Below are positions 8,750 to 24,813 of a DNA stretch of 64,000 nt, in pieces. This DNA is from Terriglobia bacterium. GTDB taxonomy: Bacteria; Acidobacteriota; Terriglobia; Bryobacterales; Bryobacteraceae. Position numbers and translations under genes: made by a program. Positions within the stretch are counted from its first letter, which is position 1; each line of letters begins with the position of its first letter. Location: assembly GCA_020073265.1 (NCBI GenBank), contig JAIQFN010000016.1, positions 1 through 64,000 of the forward strand, in the 5' to 3' direction. Under the pieces are notes generated by a model. The model worked only from the letters and a program-made list of their open reading frames with translations. It did no database searches and was not told the origin of the DNA.

Positions 8750-9887
8750 TGCGCCCCTACTACGCGCTTGCAGCATTACTCTTCTTGGCAGGATGCGGAA
8801 ACGAACCGGCGGACGACACTGTGGGCACGTCAGTGACTCCGATACGGGTGGAAACCGTTGCCGTCACTGAAACCGATTGGCCATCTACCTACGAGGCGAC
8901 GGGCAGCATCCGCGCCAGGACCACAGCCACCATCTCCTCCAAACTCATGGGGTATGCGCGTGAAGTACGAGCGCAAATTGGAGACCGCGTGCGGGAAGGA
9001 CAACCGCTGGTCGTGCTGGACGCTCGCGACCTGGACACGTCGGTGGCGCGGGCGGAGGCCGGGCGCGAGGAAGTGAAAAGCGCCATTCCCGAGGCGGAGA
9101 GCGCCGTCGCCTTGGCCAGAGCTCAACTGGATTTGGCCCAAGTGACCTTCCATCGCATTAAGGATCTGTTGAACAAGAGGTCGATCACCAACCAGGAATA
9201 CGATGAAGCCTCGGCGCGTTTGAAAGCGGCGCAAGCCACGCTCGACATGGCGTGCGCCAGACGCGCTCAGTCAGACGCGAAGATGGCGCAAAGTGAGCAG
9301 GAGGTCCGATCTGCCGGGATTCAGCGTGGCTACTCGGAAATCATCGCGCCCTTCTCCGGGACCATCATTACCAAGTCCATCGACCCCGGCACTTTGGCGG
9401 TACCCGGCGCACCGTTGTTCACCATCGAGCGCGCCGGCGCCTACCGGCTTGAGGCGTCCGTGGAAGAGTCTCGACTTTCCTTGGCGCGAGTTGGGAAAAC
9501 GGTTTCGATCACGATAGACGGTATTGATCGAACGTTTCCGGCGCGAGTTGCCGAAGTCGTTCCGTCAGTGGATGCGGCAGCAAGAACCGGAACGGTGAAG
9601 ATCGACTTGCCCTCGCTTCCCGAGTTGCGCTCCGGGTTGTTTGGAAGAGCGCTCTTTGACACGGGCGGGCGCAAGGTTCTGACGGTCCCAAGCGCGGGCG
9701 TCATGGAACGCGGACAACTCCAGTCCGTCTACATCGCGGAGAACAACGTCGCTCATACGCGGCTGGTGACGCTCGGCACGAGGGTGAAAGACAAAGTTGA
9801 AGTACTCTCGGGCCTCAACCAAGGCGACCGCGTGATCGTTCCGATCCCCACCAGCCTGGCCGATGGCGCGCCGATAGAGGTTCGCCA

Positions 9888-16382: not shown

Positions 16383-16829
16383 TTGTGGCGGAAAAGATCG
16401 CGCAGGGTATCGGCGCTCACTTCCGCTCACATCCAGCAGCGCGATGGCCGCTGGTGCATCGTCGACCTCAAGGGTAAGCACGGCCGCGTTCGCACGATGC
16501 CGATGCCGACCTGGGTTAAGGTGGCGATCGATGCGTGGATATCTGCGGCGGCGCTTGTGGGAGGCTTTCTGTTCCAACCTGTGAACCGAGCCGACCGAGT
16601 GGCTGGCGAACGCCTCGGCGAAAAGGTCGTCTGGCAGATGCTCCAGGCTTACGCGGCAGCAGTTAGCGTTCCCAGCATCGCGCCTCATGACCTGCGCCGC
16701 ACGTGTGCGAAATTGTGCCGGGCGGCCGGAGGAGAGCTTGAGCAAATCCAACTGCTCCTCGGCCATGCGTCGGTTCAGACCACGGAACGATACCTCGGTA
16801 CCAAGCAGGATCTAGTTCATGCGAGTTGA
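16383..16829 (+). pseudogene. Tyrosine recombinase (phage integrase family), C-terminal remnant
   Basis: The frame retains the C-terminal half of the catalytic domain: HIQQRDGRWCIVDLKGKHGR with the beta-hairpin lysine, then HDLRRTCAKLCR (His-x-x-Arg box) and LLGHASVQTTERYLG with the nucleophile tyrosine. The first catalytic arginine and the whole core-binding domain are missing; upstream of SALTSAHIQQ the reading loses all similarity and no usable start is present. The copy is therefore inactive. It closely resembles chromosomal integrases common in Acidobacteria and marks a former mobile element between the molybdoenzyme operon and the signalling island. Confidence 0.75.
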
Positions 16830-17085: not shown

Positions 17086-17119
17086 TGGCGTGAAAGAAAT
17101 CGGACGAAAGTACGCTTGT
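17086..17119 (+). promoter_or_regulatory. Two-box promoter-like element shared with 21292-21325
   Basis: TGGCGTGAAAGAAAT at 17086-17100, twelve bases, then CGCTTGT at 17113-17119. The same two boxes with the same spacing lie before the related gene at 21346, and the distance to the ATG is nearly identical (21 and 20 bases). GAAAG-N16-CGCTT has the geometry of an ECF-sigma promoter (-35 and -10). An ECF sigma gene lies immediately downstream of the gene it precedes. A ribosome site AGGAGG follows at 17126-17131, so a transcript starting here would have a very short leader. Confidence 0.55.
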
Positions 17120-17140
17120 TGCCATAGGAGGTAGGACACC

Positions 17141-17917
17141 ATGAAAAAAATGGCATACAGGAACATAGCGATAATATTGTTGACGCTGGGCGCGGCGGCC
17201 CCGGGAATGGCGGACGAGGTTCACTTCGGCCCGATCCAGATCGCCGCGTTTGAGAACGCGCGGCTTACGGCGGACTGCGATGGCTCGGTCACTCCAACGC
17301 CCTGCGAGGTCACCTTCGAGTTCAGGCACGGCGGCGGCCGGCTATTGAAGCAGGCCACCATGATGATTCAACCGGGCGCCGCCGGCTTCCTGGATCTGGC
17401 GGCAGCGCAAACCGGAATCGCCGGGCCGGTATTGCTTGATCCGTGCTGGAAGGTGACGCGGGGCTCCGCCACCGCTTCACTGGAAGTTTTCGACACGTTC
17501 AGTTTGCGCACCCGCATCCTGATCAACTGGGGCGACCGTTCCGTGCCCAGGTCGGGGGATGTCGACTTTGGCTTGGCCGGCATCACGCCTCTTGACACGG
17601 CTCGCATCAACGCCTTCTGCTCCGACGACCAGGACGTGCCCGGGCGCCTTCCGGCGGAGTGCGACGTCACCTTCGAGTTTCACGATGCGCAGGGGCGGCT
17701 GCTCAAACAAACGCGCATGACCCTGCAGCCAGGCACCGCCGGCTTCGCGGAATTGCGCTGGCCCGAGACGGGCGCCACAGCGAGGCGAGTTGAGCTTGAC
17801 CCGTGCTGGACGGTAGCCAGTGGACTAGCCGTAGGAACCTTCTCCGTGATCGACACCTTCACCGGCCTCACCATCGCGCAGGCATATCCGGCGACGCTGA
17901 TATCGGGGACGCCGTAG
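17141..17917 (+). CDS. Exported protein with two tandem about 110-residue domains
   Basis: AGGAGG nine bases upstream supports the ATG at 17141. The 258-residue product has a signal peptide (IAIILLTLGAAAPGMA) and then two related domains: FGPIQIAAFENARLTADCDG, EVTFEFRHGGGRLLKQATMM, LDPCWKV in the first and FGLAGITPLDTARINAFCSD, DVTFEFHDAQGRLLKQTRMT, LDPCWTV in the second. Each has a pair of cysteines, suggesting disulfide-linked beta-sandwich units. No known family is recognised. A second, more diverged tandem-domain gene follows the kinase at 21346, with a shared upstream element, so both are probably targets or sensors of the sigma/kinase pair in between. Confidence 0.8.
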   Translation: MKKMAYRNIAIILLTLGAAAPGMADEVHFGPIQIAAFENARLTADCDGSVTPTPCEVTFEFRHGGGRLLKQATMMIQPGAAGFLDLAAAQTGIAGPVLLDPCWKVTRGSATASLEVFDTFSLRTRILINWGDRSVPRSGDVDFGLAGITPLDTARINAFCSDDQDVPGRLPAECDVTFEFHDAQGRLLKQTRMTLQPGTAGFAELRWPETGATARRVELDPCWTVASGLAVGTFSVIDTFTGLTIAQAYPATLISGTP

Positions 17918-17978
17918 CGCCGGAGTGAGGCTGCGGTTTTACAAGCCATGCTGAGGGGCTCGTGATAATCTGTAGCCC

Positions 17979-18548
17979 ATGGCGGACGGGGGGGAGATCA
18001 CGCGGCTCCTGCGCGCCTGGTCCAGGGGCGACGGAGACGCGCTGGAAGCCCTGATCCCTCTGGTCTACGAGGAACTGCGGCGCCTGGCTGCCGGCCAGAT
18101 GCGGGCTGAGAATCCAGGCCACACTTTGTCCCCGACGGGTCTGGTTCACGAGTCCTTTCTGAAGTTGGTTGAACAGAAGCACAGCCCGGACTGGCAGGAC
18201 CGCAAGCACTTTTTCGTTGTAGCCTCGAAGGCCATGCGCCAATTGCTGGTGGACCATGCGCGCCGGAAGCATGCTCGAAAGCGCGACCCCGGCGCCCCCG
18301 CTGAATGGCCCGGCCAGTACCAGATGCCCGGCGCCCCCTGGGACGTCATCGATCTTGACCGCGCCCTGGATCGCCTGGAACAGAACGAGCCCCGGATGGC
18401 CAAGGCCGTGGAACTCCGGTTCTTCGGCGGATTGAACCTGGACGAGATTGCCACGACCATGGACGTTTCCGCGCCTACCATCAGCCGCGAATTGCGCCTC
18501 GCGGAGGCTTGGCTGGCGCACGAGATCCGGGGCGATCCACAGGATTAG
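17979..18548 (+). CDS. ECF sigma factor, TIGR02999 type (kinase-associated)
   Basis: The 189-residue product begins ITRLLRAWSRGDGDALEALIP, the typical start of the Sig-70_X6 (TIGR02999) ECF group, with sigma-2 residues LSPTGLVHESFLKLV and a FFVVASKAMRQLLVDHARR segment, and sigma-4 containing VELRFFGGLNLDEIATTMDVSAPTISREL with its helix-turn-helix. In Acidobacteria and Planctomycetes such sigma factors stand next to Ser/Thr kinases, as here, in place of a classical anti-sigma factor. The kinase gene begins three to eight bases after the stop. The likely targets are the flanking secreted-protein genes that share an ECF-like promoter. Confidence 0.92.
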   Translation: MADGGEITRLLRAWSRGDGDALEALIPLVYEELRRLAAGQMRAENPGHTLSPTGLVHESFLKLVEQKHSPDWQDRKHFFVVASKAMRQLLVDHARRKHARKRDPGAPAEWPGQYQMPGAPWDVIDLDRALDRLEQNEPRMAKAVELRFFGGLNLDEIATTMDVSAPTISRELRLAEAWLAHEIRGDPQD

Positions 18549-18556
18549 TCCATGGA

Positions 18557-21277
18557 ATGGCCCGAGCTGAAGCGACTGTTCGACCTGGCCTGCGACCTGC
18601 CGCCGGCCAGCGGGAATTATTTCTCGATCGCGAATGCGCCGATCCCGAGCTGCGGCGGCAGGTAACCGAGTTGCTCGCCGAATCCGACGCCGGTGCCAGC
18701 GAATTTCTACAGGCCCTCGTCACCCAGGATTCGGTGGCTCTCGCCGCGCCTGCCCTGGAGGACCGCGCCGGTGAGACGATCGGATCCTACCGGATCGAGC
18801 GCGAGCTGGGCCGCGGCGGCATGGGCGACGTCTTCCTGGCCCGGCGTGTGGACCAGGAGTTCGACAAACTGGTCGCCGTCAAAATCGTCCGCCGCGGACC
18901 CGATCTGAGCGAAGTCCTCCGCCGCTTCCGCCAGGAGAGGCAGATTCTGGCTCGTCTGGAACATCCCAACATCGCGCGCTTGCTGGACGGCGGATCGACG
19001 GCCGACGGGTTGCCTTACCTGGTTATGGAGTATGTGGAGGGCCTCCCGATCACGGAGTACTGCGATTCCCGCGGCGCCTCCATCGAGGACCGCTGCCGCA
19101 GCATGCTTCCGGTTTGCGATGCGCTGCTCCACGCGCACCGGAATCTGGTCGTGCATCGCGACCTAAAGCCATCCAACATTCTGGTAACTTCCGAGGGCGT
19201 GCCGAAGCTCCTGGATTTCGGGATTGCCAAACTGCTGGAGCCCGAACAGGCCGCCGGCGACCAGACCGCTACCGTCTTCCATCGGCCGCTCACGCCCGAC
19301 TATGCCAGTCCCGAGCAACTGCTCGGCCGCCCCATCACCACCGCCACCGACGTGTACCTGCTGGGCGGCGTACTGTTTCAATTGCTCACGGGGCGCAAGC
19401 CGCACCAGATCACCGGCTACACGCCCGAGGAAATCGATCGCGCGGTGTGTCACACGCCGATTCCCAAGCCGAGCCAGGTGAAGCCGGAGGCGCGGCGCAA
19501 GCTGGAAGGCGATCTGGATAACATCGTGCTGCGGGCCACGCACGCCGAGCCGGAACAGCGCTACGCGTCAGTGGAGCAGATGGCCGGCGATCTGGAGCGC
19601 TATCTCGCGCATCGTCCGGTGCTGGCGCGTCCGGATAGCCTGCGATACCGCGCCGGGAAATGGGTGCGCCGTTCTCCGGTGACTGCGGCCGCGCTCGCCC
19701 TGGTGCTTCTGAGCATCACGGCCGGCGTGGCTGGCACGCTGTACCAGGCTAGGCGGGCGGAGCGCCGCTTCCAACAGGTTCGCAATCTGGCCAAGTCATT
19801 TGTGTTCGACGTGCATGATCAGATCGCGACGCTTCCGGGCGCGACGCAGGCGCGTAAGACGATCGTGAGCACGGCGCTGACTTACCTGGAGAATCTATCG
19901 AAGGAAGCGGGCGGCGATGCGGACGTGACGCGGGAACTGGCGGCGGCGTATCTCAAGATCGGCGCGGTGCAGGGCGATCCGGTGAGCAGCAATCTGGGGG
20001 ATCCGGTGGGCGCGATGCAGAGCTATCGGAACGCGGAGACTCTGCTGGCTCCGCTCAATTCCCGTGGCGACCTGGAGGCGGACCGGCTGCTGATGTCGGT
20101 CTACACGCGCATGTCCGCATTGCAGCGTTCCAAAGCCGACGCTGCCGCGGCGATCGAATCCATCCGGCTGGCGCGGCGCTGCGCGGACCAAATATTGGCG
20201 CGCCTGCCCGGCGACTCCGAAACGCTCGCCGCAGTTGTGGACTTGGATCTCAGCCTGAGCCGATCGCTGCGAGCCTCCGGCGATCCGAAAGGCGCGGGCG
20301 TGGCAGCCCACTCCGCGATGGCCGCGGCGGAGAAGCTTTCCGCGGGCCAGCCGAACGACGCTACCCTGCTGGCCGGCCTGGCCGACGCCGTGAGCAACCT
20401 CGGGGTGCTCCAGGCGCAAAGCGGGGATCTCGACTCCGCTGCCGCAACTTTTCGCCACCTGGTGGAGATCCGGGAGCGCATGGCTCGCGATCAACCGGGG
20501 AACGTGGTCTACCAGCGGCAGCTCATGATCGCCTACGGGCATGTCGGGGACGTGCTGGGCTTTCGGGCGGGTGAACATTTGGGCGATTTCGCAGGCGCCG
20601 CGGAGGTTCTGGGAAAGGCCGTGGCCATCGCCGAGTGGCTGGCCCGGCAGGATCCGTCCGATGAGAAGGCGCGCTTTGACCTGGCCAGCGCCAAGCTTCG
20701 TTTCGGAACGGTGTTGTTGGAACAGGGGCACGCCCCGGACGGTCTGGCGCAGCTCGAAGAAGCCGACCGTTTGAATGCGCCTTTGCTCCGCAAGAACGCC
20801 TCCAGCACGCTGTACCTGGCGAACTCCATCGTCCTGAAGACCACCATCGCGGAGGCGCTGGTGGGACTGGGCCGGAGCAACGACGCCGTGCGACTGGCGC
20901 GGCAGGCCGTCGCCGATGCAAGAGCGGGTATCGCACCCAGGCTGGCTACTCCGAGCCAGGTGCTTCACAGCCAGTTGGGATTGGCTATTGTCCTGGCGCG
21001 CGCGCATCGGGCTGACGAAGCCGGTCAAGTAGCGGGCAGCCTGGGCGCCGCGCTGGCGGGCGATGCCCAGTTGCTTCGAACGGGCTGGCTGCGCGCTTAC
21101 TTCTACAGCGAGCTGGGTGGGATCTACCAGCAGCTTGGTCAGTCGGGCGCGGCGCGGACATGGTTCACCAAGAGCCGTGAAGCTTGGGGGCGAATCGGCG
21201 GCGGTCCGCTGCTCTCGGCTCGGCGCGACAGCGAGATCCGGCGACTGGACGCGGCTCTGGATAATCGCAGGCCCTGA
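18557..21277 (+). CDS. Membrane Ser/Thr protein kinase with C-terminal TPR-like region
   Basis: From the ATG at 18557 the product has 906 residues. The kinase domain shows GRGGMGDVFLA (about residue 84), AVKIV, HRDLKPSNIL (about 200), DFGIAK and PDYASPEQL, so it should be active. One membrane helix (ALALVLLSITAGVAG, about 375-395) separates it from about 500 residues of TPR-like helices facing the periplasm. The family usually starts M-x-W-x-x-[LV]-K-x-L-F; that peptide exists here from the ATG at 18552 (MEWPELKRLFDLACDLPPA) but in another frame, and one missing base near 18607 would join it to QRELFLDRECADPELRRQV. Either the gene is frameshifted or translation starts at 18557. It probably regulates the adjacent ECF sigma factor. 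Confidence 0.88.
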   Translation: MARAEATVRPGLRPAAGQRELFLDRECADPELRRQVTELLAESDAGASEFLQALVTQDSVALAAPALEDRAGETIGSYRIERELGRGGMGDVFLARRVDQEFDKLVAVKIVRRGPDLSEVLRRFRQERQILARLEHPNIARLLDGGSTADGLPYLVMEYVEGLPITEYCDSRGASIEDRCRSMLPVCDALLHAHRNLVVHRDLKPSNILVTSEGVPKLLDFGIAKLLEPEQAAGDQTATVFHRPLTPDYASPEQLLGRPITTATDVYLLGGVLFQLLTGRKPHQITGYTPEEIDRAVCHTPIPKPSQVKPEARRKLEGDLDNIVLRATHAEPEQRYASVEQMAGDLERYLAHRPVLARPDSLRYRAGKWVRRSPVTAAALALVLLSITAGVAGTLYQARRAERRFQQVRNLAKSFVFDVHDQIATLPGATQARKTIVSTALTYLENLSKEAGGDADVTRELAAAYLKIGAVQGDPVSSNLGDPVGAMQSYRNAETLLAPLNSRGDLEADRLLMSVYTRMSALQRSKADAAAAIESIRLARRCADQILARLPGDSETLAAVVDLDLSLSRSLRASGDPKGAGVAAHSAMAAAEKLSAGQPNDATLLAGLADAVSNLGVLQAQSGDLDSAAATFRHLVEIRERMARDQPGNVVYQRQLMIAYGHVGDVLGFRAGEHLGDFAGAAEVLGKAVAIAEWLARQDPSDEKARFDLASAKLRFGTVLLEQGHAPDGLAQLEEADRLNAPLLRKNASSTLYLANSIVLKTTIAEALVGLGRSNDAVRLARQAVADARAGIAPRLATPSQVLHSQLGLAIVLARAHRADEAGQVAGSLGAALAGDAQLLRTGWLRAYFYSELGGIYQQLGQSGAARTWFTKSREAWGRIGGGPLLSARRDSEIRRLDAALDNRRP

Positions 21278-21291
21278 AATTCGCACAGCGT

Positions 21292-21325
21292 TGGCCTGAA
21301 AGAAATTCCTCCCGATTGCGCTTGT
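21292..21325 (+). promoter_or_regulatory. Two-box promoter-like element, second copy
   Basis: TGGCCTGAAAGAAAT at 21292-21306 differs by one base from the box at 17086, and CGCTTGT at 21319-21325 repeats exactly after the same twelve-base gap, while the gap itself has diverged. It begins 14 bases after the kinase stop and ends 20 bases before the ATG of the second secreted-protein gene, so that gene probably has its own promoter and does not rely on read-through. Confidence 0.55.
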
Positions 21326-21345
21326 GATCCCGGAGGGTTTCTCTC

Positions 21346-22157
21346 ATGCGTTCTCTTGCGATATTTTTCGCCGGCACCCTGATGCTGTGCGGTACTTTGC
21401 TTGCAGTCGATCCGCCGGATGGAGATTTTCCCATTCTGGGCGGCTCGTTGGGGCAAACCATTCGCATTGCTATCACCGCGGACGGCCGGGCGGGTTGCGC
21501 CGCCGTAGTGGGCTTCCGCAACTCTCTGAACGCTCCGCCGGAGCCCGACAGGACGCTGAGCTTAGCGGCGGGGAACACCGGATTCGTGGACTTGAACCTC
21601 AGCCGCCTGGCGCCGCGCTTCGGACAACGCGTGGAATTGCGGCCGTTTGTGCAGGTGACCTCGGGCCAGTGCGATGGATCGGTCGAAGTTTTCGAAGTCT
21701 TCACCGGCCACACCACGGCATCGCTACGGCTGTTCACCGGTCTCAGCGATTCGCCGAAACCCGGGACGCCCGGTCTCGTCCCTCCTCCGGATCCGGATTT
21801 CCCCGCCCTGGGCGCGGTGCGCGGCCAACTGGTGCGACTGGGAGTGGCGCGGACGCAGGGTCCGCCGGAGCCGGATACGCCTGGTCTGGTCGATCCGCCG
21901 GAGCCGGAATGCCAGGCGGTGCTGGGATTACAGACGGCGACGGCAACGCGATCGGGCCGCAGAAGCGGATCGCCCTCGCGCCCGGCCAGTTCGACTTCGT
22001 GGATTTCGACCCGGCGCAGATGCCGGGTGCGGCGGGCCGCATCACCGTTCGCCCTGTGTTGATTTCCACCGGTAGCAGCATGGCCGGCTGCCAGGCCTCG
22101 GCGCAGGTGTTCGAGCAAGTCACCGGCTGGACCAGTGTGGTGGTGCAAGGCCGATAG
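21346..22157 (+). CDS. Exported tandem-domain protein, paralogue of 17141, with apparent frameshift
   Basis: GGAGGG ten bases upstream supports the ATG at 21346. A signal peptide (IFFAGTLMLCGTLLA) is followed by a domain with GQTIRIAITADGRAGCAAVV, AGNTGFVDLNL and SGQCDGSVEVFEVFTG, then a linker rich in PPEPD/PGLV, then a second copy starting GQLVRLGVAR and CQAVLGL. At about 21928 the reading frame breaks: the in-frame continuation ends at 22062 in a Ser/Arg-rich tail, whereas the next frame gives DGDGNAIGPQ, APGQFDFVDFD and CQASAQVFEQVTG, matching the first copy, to a stop at 22155-22157. One missing base restores a protein of about 270 residues. Function unknown. Confidence 0.65.
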
Positions 22158-22194: not shown

Positions 22195-22250
22195 GGAACC
22201 AGCTAAATATCCTGCGTCCGCGTGCCGATAAACGATAGAGAGTTCTATCG
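22195..22250 (+). promoter_or_regulatory. Possible ECF-type promoter and operator before the hybrid kinase
   Basis: GGAACC at 22195-22200 and CGTC at 22215-22218 fit the common ECF pattern GGAAC-N15-CGTC. A perfect 7-bp inverted repeat, CGATAGA-GAGT-TCTATCG (22233-22250), ends one base before the ATG at 22252 and could be an operator or a hairpin covering the start. Short motifs like these occur by chance, so this is tentative. Confidence 0.3.
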
Positions 22251-22251
22251 G

Positions 22252-24813
<2,562 letters not shown>

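Follow-up and report, generated by a model that had tools for sequence, protein, structure and literature searches.

A putative ECF43-type sigma factor and kinase cassette with a two-box promoter-like word shared by two neighbouring exported-protein genes in a Terriglobia genome

A TIGR02999 ECF sigma factor gene and an adjoining Hanks-type Ser/Thr kinase gene lie between two genes for predicted exported proteins, sec1 and sec2, and nearly identical two-box elements precede the two exported-protein genes (Table 1). We consider it moderately probable that this locus is an autonomous ECF43-type cassette for envelope signalling, in which a kinase-to-sigma relay would control a tiny private regulon made up of the operon that encodes it and of exported proteins; Sec1 and Sec2 are probably targets private to this pair. 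The window, by which we mean the whole 64,000-nucleotide stretch of DNA that was analysed, is part of contig C87 of a 6.41-Mb genome in 131 contigs.

Table 1. Features of the cassette in the window and of the G104 locus used for comparison.
Feature	Position	Strand	Description
Promoter-like element 1	17086..17119	+	TGGCGTGAAAGAAAT (17086-17100), 12-base spacer, CGCTTGT (17113-17119)
Sec1, predicted exported protein	17141..17917	+	258 aa; hydrophobic N-terminus, two ~110-aa beta-sandwich domains
ECF sigma factor, TIGR02999 (Sig-70_X6 / PF07638)	17979..18548	+	189 aa; profile matches; SPTG at 51-54
Ser/Thr kinase	18552..21277	+	Pkinase, single TM segment, TPR-containing C-terminal ectodomain of ~500 aa; tool ORF 18509-21277
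Promoter-like element 2	21292..21325	+	TGGCCTGAAAGAAAT (21292-21306), 12-base spacer, CGCTTGT (21319-21325)
Sec2, predicted exported protein	21346..22157	+	the Sec1 domain in two diverged copies; single-base frameshift near 21925
G104 locus	L095:1-6622 (G104:C590)	n/a	box, TIGR02999 sigma, kinase, divergent secreted lysyl-oxidase-like gene

The two elements share the form TGGCSTGAAAGAAAT-N12-CGCTTGT, which can also be written TGGC[G/C]TGAAAGAAAT-N12-CGCTTGT. A sequence-only reading of this DNA had described two elements with identical internal spacing, a diverged gap between the boxes and almost the same distance to the ATG, and each of these points held: CGCTTGT ends 21 nt before the ATG of sec1 (17141) and 20 nt before that of sec2 (21346), 21 of the 22 box positions are identical (14/15 in the first box, 7/7 in the second), and the spacers agree at only 3 of 12. 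The score of 21/22 compares with a maximum of 19/22 in controls with free spacing allowed, which consisted of 5000 shuffles of both upstream regions and 4941 random window pairs. The same reading had proposed a genome-wide scan for the boxes; no scattered copies were seen, the exact word TGAAAGAAAT-N12-CGCTTGT occurring at two sites in the whole genome, both at this locus, and matches with three mismatches across the genome showing no excess over a reversed-pattern control. Recent duplication of the upstream region, which would have left the boxes without meaning, does not account for them, since only 13 of 60 bases are identical in the upstream flanks and the spacers are equally dissimilar.

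ECF promoters have two boxes immediately ahead of the gene, with their starts about 22 bases from each other. This spacing is present in both elements (22 bases from the start of TGAAA to the start of CGCTT), so that the ECF-promoter geometry noticed earlier stands, but the usual letters do not accompany it; the hallmark AAC of the -35 box and CGT of the -10 box (PMC8103513) are absent from both elements, which read TGAAAG and CGCTTGT instead. When a sigma-70-like promoter was looked for upstream of sec1 and sec2, none was found. Element 2 is the proposed promoter of sec2.

Against the TIGR02999 model the sigma factor scored 192.2 bits (cut-off 126.15), which bears out the earlier assignment of the gene between the two secreted genes; PF07638 matches too, and the reading frame is intact. 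Its sigma-2.2 region carries the non-charged SPTG in place of DxxD, with Thr53 at the position of EcfK Thr51. Threonine occupies the equivalent position in 63 of the 67 TIGR02999 proteins examined, and the motif is free of acidic residues in 60 of them. ECF43 factors have lost the negatively charged DxxD of sigma-2.2, and the adjacent kinase phosphorylates a threonine found there instead, so allowing RNA polymerase to be bound; QTTA, QATE and STTA are the motifs available for comparison (PMC13147305, PMC8103513). The window pair matches these systems in kinase adjacency, DxxD loss and threonine position, its profile matches being to TIGR02999 and PF07638. Given SPTG with its Thr53 and the ECF43 precedent, activation of the sigma factor through phosphorylation by the kinase would be, by homology, the best-supported mechanism.

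The kinase (Pkinase match, 2.6e-41) starts immediately behind the sigma gene, its ATG at 18552 following the sigma stop at 18548. The large extracytoplasmic region that had been attributed to it was recovered as a TPR-containing stretch behind the single transmembrane segment, and its orientation across the membrane is a prediction. Because the gaps are short (61 bases between sec1 and sigma, 3 between sigma and kinase) and no terminator-like site was seen in the sec1-sigma, sigma-kinase or kinase-sec2 gap, element 1 probably drives sec1, sigma and kinase as an operon. A one-base shift puts the natural kinase start (ATG 18552, MEWPELKRLFDLACDLPPA) in a different frame from the remainder of the protein (QRELFLDRECADPELRRQV...), the change falling near 18600 (18590-18620); a related kinase in genome G078 starts with MDWNRAQELFDRASAMPPAEAAQFLERECGDDREL, which indicates that the two halves belong together. 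In sec2, the first frame ends at 22062 and the second extends to 22157, with the switch between 21915 and 21940. The frameshifts in the two genes could be assembly errors, or they may reflect real decay. The sequence-only reading had mentioned neither of them, nor the further TIGR02999 paralogues of the genome.

Both exported proteins have the hydrophobic N-terminus typical of signal peptides and two copies of one domain of about 110 aa, as the sequence-only reading had supposed. The two domains of Sec1, whose reading frame is intact, are 46% identical to each other, and the domains of Sec1 and Sec2, though of the same family, are only about 20-36% identical. No Pfam or NCBIfam family matched either protein. 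A confident model of the Sec1 domain (pLDDT 89, pTM 0.82) is a beta-sandwich, and it matched no PDB structure at E <= 0.001, so that no function can be read from the fold.

Homologues of Sec1 are present in 19 of the 257 genomes of the order, and homologues of Sec2 likewise in 19 genomes, the window's own genome being counted in each case. Most of them have no TIGR02999 neighbour, so the domain family does not belong specifically to TIGR02999 sigma/kinase pairs. Beyond the window, the exceptions are contig 193 of G169, where a homologue is convergent with a sigma gene, and G034, where a secreted protein with a Sec1-type domain is encoded directly 3' of a TIGR02999 sigma gene (L082:438-2226, G034:C1003) with no box. 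The Sec2 homologues of other genera and of three same-genus genomes have neither a box nor a sigma neighbour. No Sec1 homologue was found in four same-genus genomes, so the cassette may have arrived by transfer, or it may have disappeared from other genomes. Just upstream of the cassette, at 16383-16829, the window holds a fragment of a phage-type integrase (PF00589). About 60 bp after sec2, on the same strand, a hybrid histidine kinase with PAS, HisKA, HATPase and receiver domains is encoded at 22222-24813, with no box before its gene.

The box was then sought in other genomes. Allowing at most one mismatch, TGAAAGAAAT-N12-CGCTTGT matched in two of the 256 other genomes of the order, G104 and G218. 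In G104, which belongs to another genus, the box is intergenic, with a TIGR02999 sigma/kinase pair on one side and a divergently oriented secreted gene on the other; it lies 52 bp from the sigma start, the kinase following sigma, and is directed at the secreted gene, which encodes a lysyl-oxidase domain. The start of that gene is about 120 nt past the box, and the ATG of a 23-codon frame is found at 19 nt. In G218, neither a sigma gene nor a secreted gene lies behind the box. In G229, a box that differs from TGAAANAAAT-N12-CGCTTGT by two mismatches precedes an N-terminally truncated, decayed Sec1 homologue (51% identity), in which AGGAGG is at the usual distance after the box but no start codon follows. 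The spacers of the G104 and G229 boxes have GTGGATTC in common, adjoining CGCTTGT. In G169, an exact TGAAARA-N15-CGCTTGT is found 18 nt upstream of the ATG of a secreted protein of another family than Sec1 and Sec2; the relative of the window kinase and sigma in G169 has no box at its own locus. CGCTTGT ends 18-21 nt before a start codon in four cases.

The window and G104 sigma factors are 45% identical and share the recognition-helix pattern TISRE-x-R-x-AEAWL; a protein-level scan of the named genome contigs with the sigma factor returned distant relatives only (41-44%). Comparison of the sigma/kinase loci of related genomes, which the earlier reading had proposed, placed the box beside the pair with the closest ectodomain. 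When the window kinase was compared with those at the TIGR02999 loci of its own genome, G104, G169 and G229 and with those beside the best-matching sigma factors of about 20 further genomes, its ectodomain was closest to that of the G104 kinase (44% over 507 aa) and of the G169 relative (46% over 402 aa), and all others compared were at most 36% identical. Of the four genomes in which a box is placed as a promoter would be, three carry this ectodomain subfamily. Two further candidates were dismissed: a box-like site on contig 193 of G169 (L065:1374), which overlaps a coding-sequence start and misses the last T, and a match in G123 that overlaps the start of a cytochrome-like gene.

Counts alone do not set the word apart. 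Across the order, TGAAARA-N15-CGCTTGT gave 15 matches against about 17 for the reversed word, the other one-mismatch boxes were at control level, and a class-wide scan of 399 genomes found no exact site outside the window's own genome. As the totals do not exceed the control, the comparative support lies in where the boxes stand and what surrounds them. For about 0.2% of positions, a secreted gene with an SD sequence follows at the right distance, and the chance that at least one of the 13 outside matches would sit so is about 0.026; the position of the G104 box beside a TIGR02999 start is rarer still by chance, roughly 0.001-0.01, and among the loci examined it was the only one with a TIGR02999 gene within 1.5 kb. 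The degenerate form TGAAARAMAY gave four out of four, but having been fitted after these cases were seen it is not an independent test. Paired private promoters were not borne out as a general rule of TIGR02999 loci: over 33 of them, shared two-box words showed no excess over between-locus pairs, in a weak comparison whose simple gene calling missed the window's own pair. At one other locus near a TIGR02999 gene (L141, G063:C269), a two-box word resembling GTGTCCACT-N11-GTTTTTCGC is shared by the regions before the ORFs at locus positions 9284 and 11735; it could have arisen by chance or be a promoter private to another pair.

Because the boxes have the spacing of ECF promoters but not their letters, we infer recognition by the window sigma factor from location and recurrence. 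The boxes might instead serve another sigma factor, either a TIGR02999 paralogue or a different ECF factor, with the neighbouring pair as a target or a bystander. Besides the window sigma factor, the genome encodes about 12 TIGR02999 paralogues that could each recognise the boxes, including one on the same contig with a similar recognition helix (TVGREQRMAEAWL), and no sigma gene lies beside the G229 and G169 boxes within the stretches read; yet both sites in the genome flank the window pair, and the box in G104 likewise adjoins a TIGR02999 pair, the one with the closest ectodomain, so that we regard this explanation as unlikely. It is improbable that the boxes serve as an operator for some DNA-binding regulator and form no sigma-factor promoter at all, for although their letters are unlike canonical ECF boxes, two separated, non-palindromic boxes at fixed spacing shortly before the start codon in four cases fit a promoter better, and the lack of a sigma-70-like promoter before sec1 and sec2 argues in the same direction. 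An old duplication of a secreted gene with its promoter could have occurred, Sec1 and Sec2 having a domain family in common, but that the elements are leftover copies of no regulatory meaning is hardly tenable when the boxes are conserved between spacers and flanks at chance identity, the domains have diverged so far, and the box recurs before unrelated genes in other genera.

We therefore return to the relay from kinase to sigma factor. The periplasmic TPR region of the kinase would sense something outside the inner membrane, and its cytoplasmic domain would phosphorylate the sigma factor, most likely at Thr53; the phosphate would supply the negative charge missing from the sigma-2.2 helix and so permit RNA polymerase binding. 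The resulting holoenzyme would read TGAAARA-N15-CGCTTGT upstream of sec1 and of sec2. Autoregulation is usual for ECF factors, and here it would arise from the sec1 promoter driving the sec1-sigma-kinase operon, the output upon induction being more sigma factor, more kinase and two exported beta-sandwich proteins. Besides the paralogues and the unusual box letters, the broken kinase and sec2 frames in the assembly and the G169 kinase relative without a box of its own count against this relay.

A closed circuit had been the proposal of the sequence-only reading, and it is the most likely interpretation, now with more support than the sequence alone had given: the box recurs beside the G104 pair and before a Sec1 relative in G229. 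The kinase-sigma step was already known, and the exported partner is not fixed, a different protein family taking the place of Sec1/Sec2 in G104 and in G169. The constant part seems to be the promoter rather than the exported protein. A bolder version, which we think distinctly doubtful, would have an ECF43-type subclass with the ~500-aa TPR ectodomain use this private word on different exported proteins in each genome, and these proteins would in turn bind the ectodomain as feedback ligands, so that the cassette would be a swappable sense-and-secrete unit.

Four genomes checked have about 7 to 20 or more kinase-paired TIGR02999 sigma factors each, and we found no paper in which any such factor of the group is given a promoter or targets. 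The locus offers a defined promoter word that occurs only twice in the genome, a named threonine and two named target genes, so that one pair becomes testable in vitro with no need to culture the host; it suggests that each such pair may govern just a handful of exported proteins encoded nearby. The kinase-sigma core is already described; what is new is the promoter word, the fact that it is nearly unique, and its association with exported proteins. The earlier statement that no described system was known with these exported partners stands: the mechanism is that of ECF43, and of the promoter and targets we found no published description.

In Candidatus Solibacter usitatus, large paralogous sets of sigma-24 factors and Ser/Thr kinases likewise coexist in one genome, and the portion of that account available to us assigns no promoter element or targets to any pair (PMC3174227). 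EcfP/PknT of Vibrio parahaemolyticus would share with the window pair the kinase-dependent activation of an ECF sigma factor through one threonine, which in EcfP lies in an STTA that replaces DAED, but controls polymyxin resistance, in another host group and through other targets (PMC13147305, PMC8103513). EcfK/PknS of Xanthomonas citri, an ECF43 system (PMC13147305), is alike in its non-charged DxxD position, its sigma-2.2 threonine phosphosite and its adjacent transmembrane Hanks-type kinase; unlike PknS, the window kinase has a large TPR-containing C-terminal region, and whereas EcfK turns on type VI secretion genes, the likely targets in the window are the two small exported proteins encoded beside the pair.
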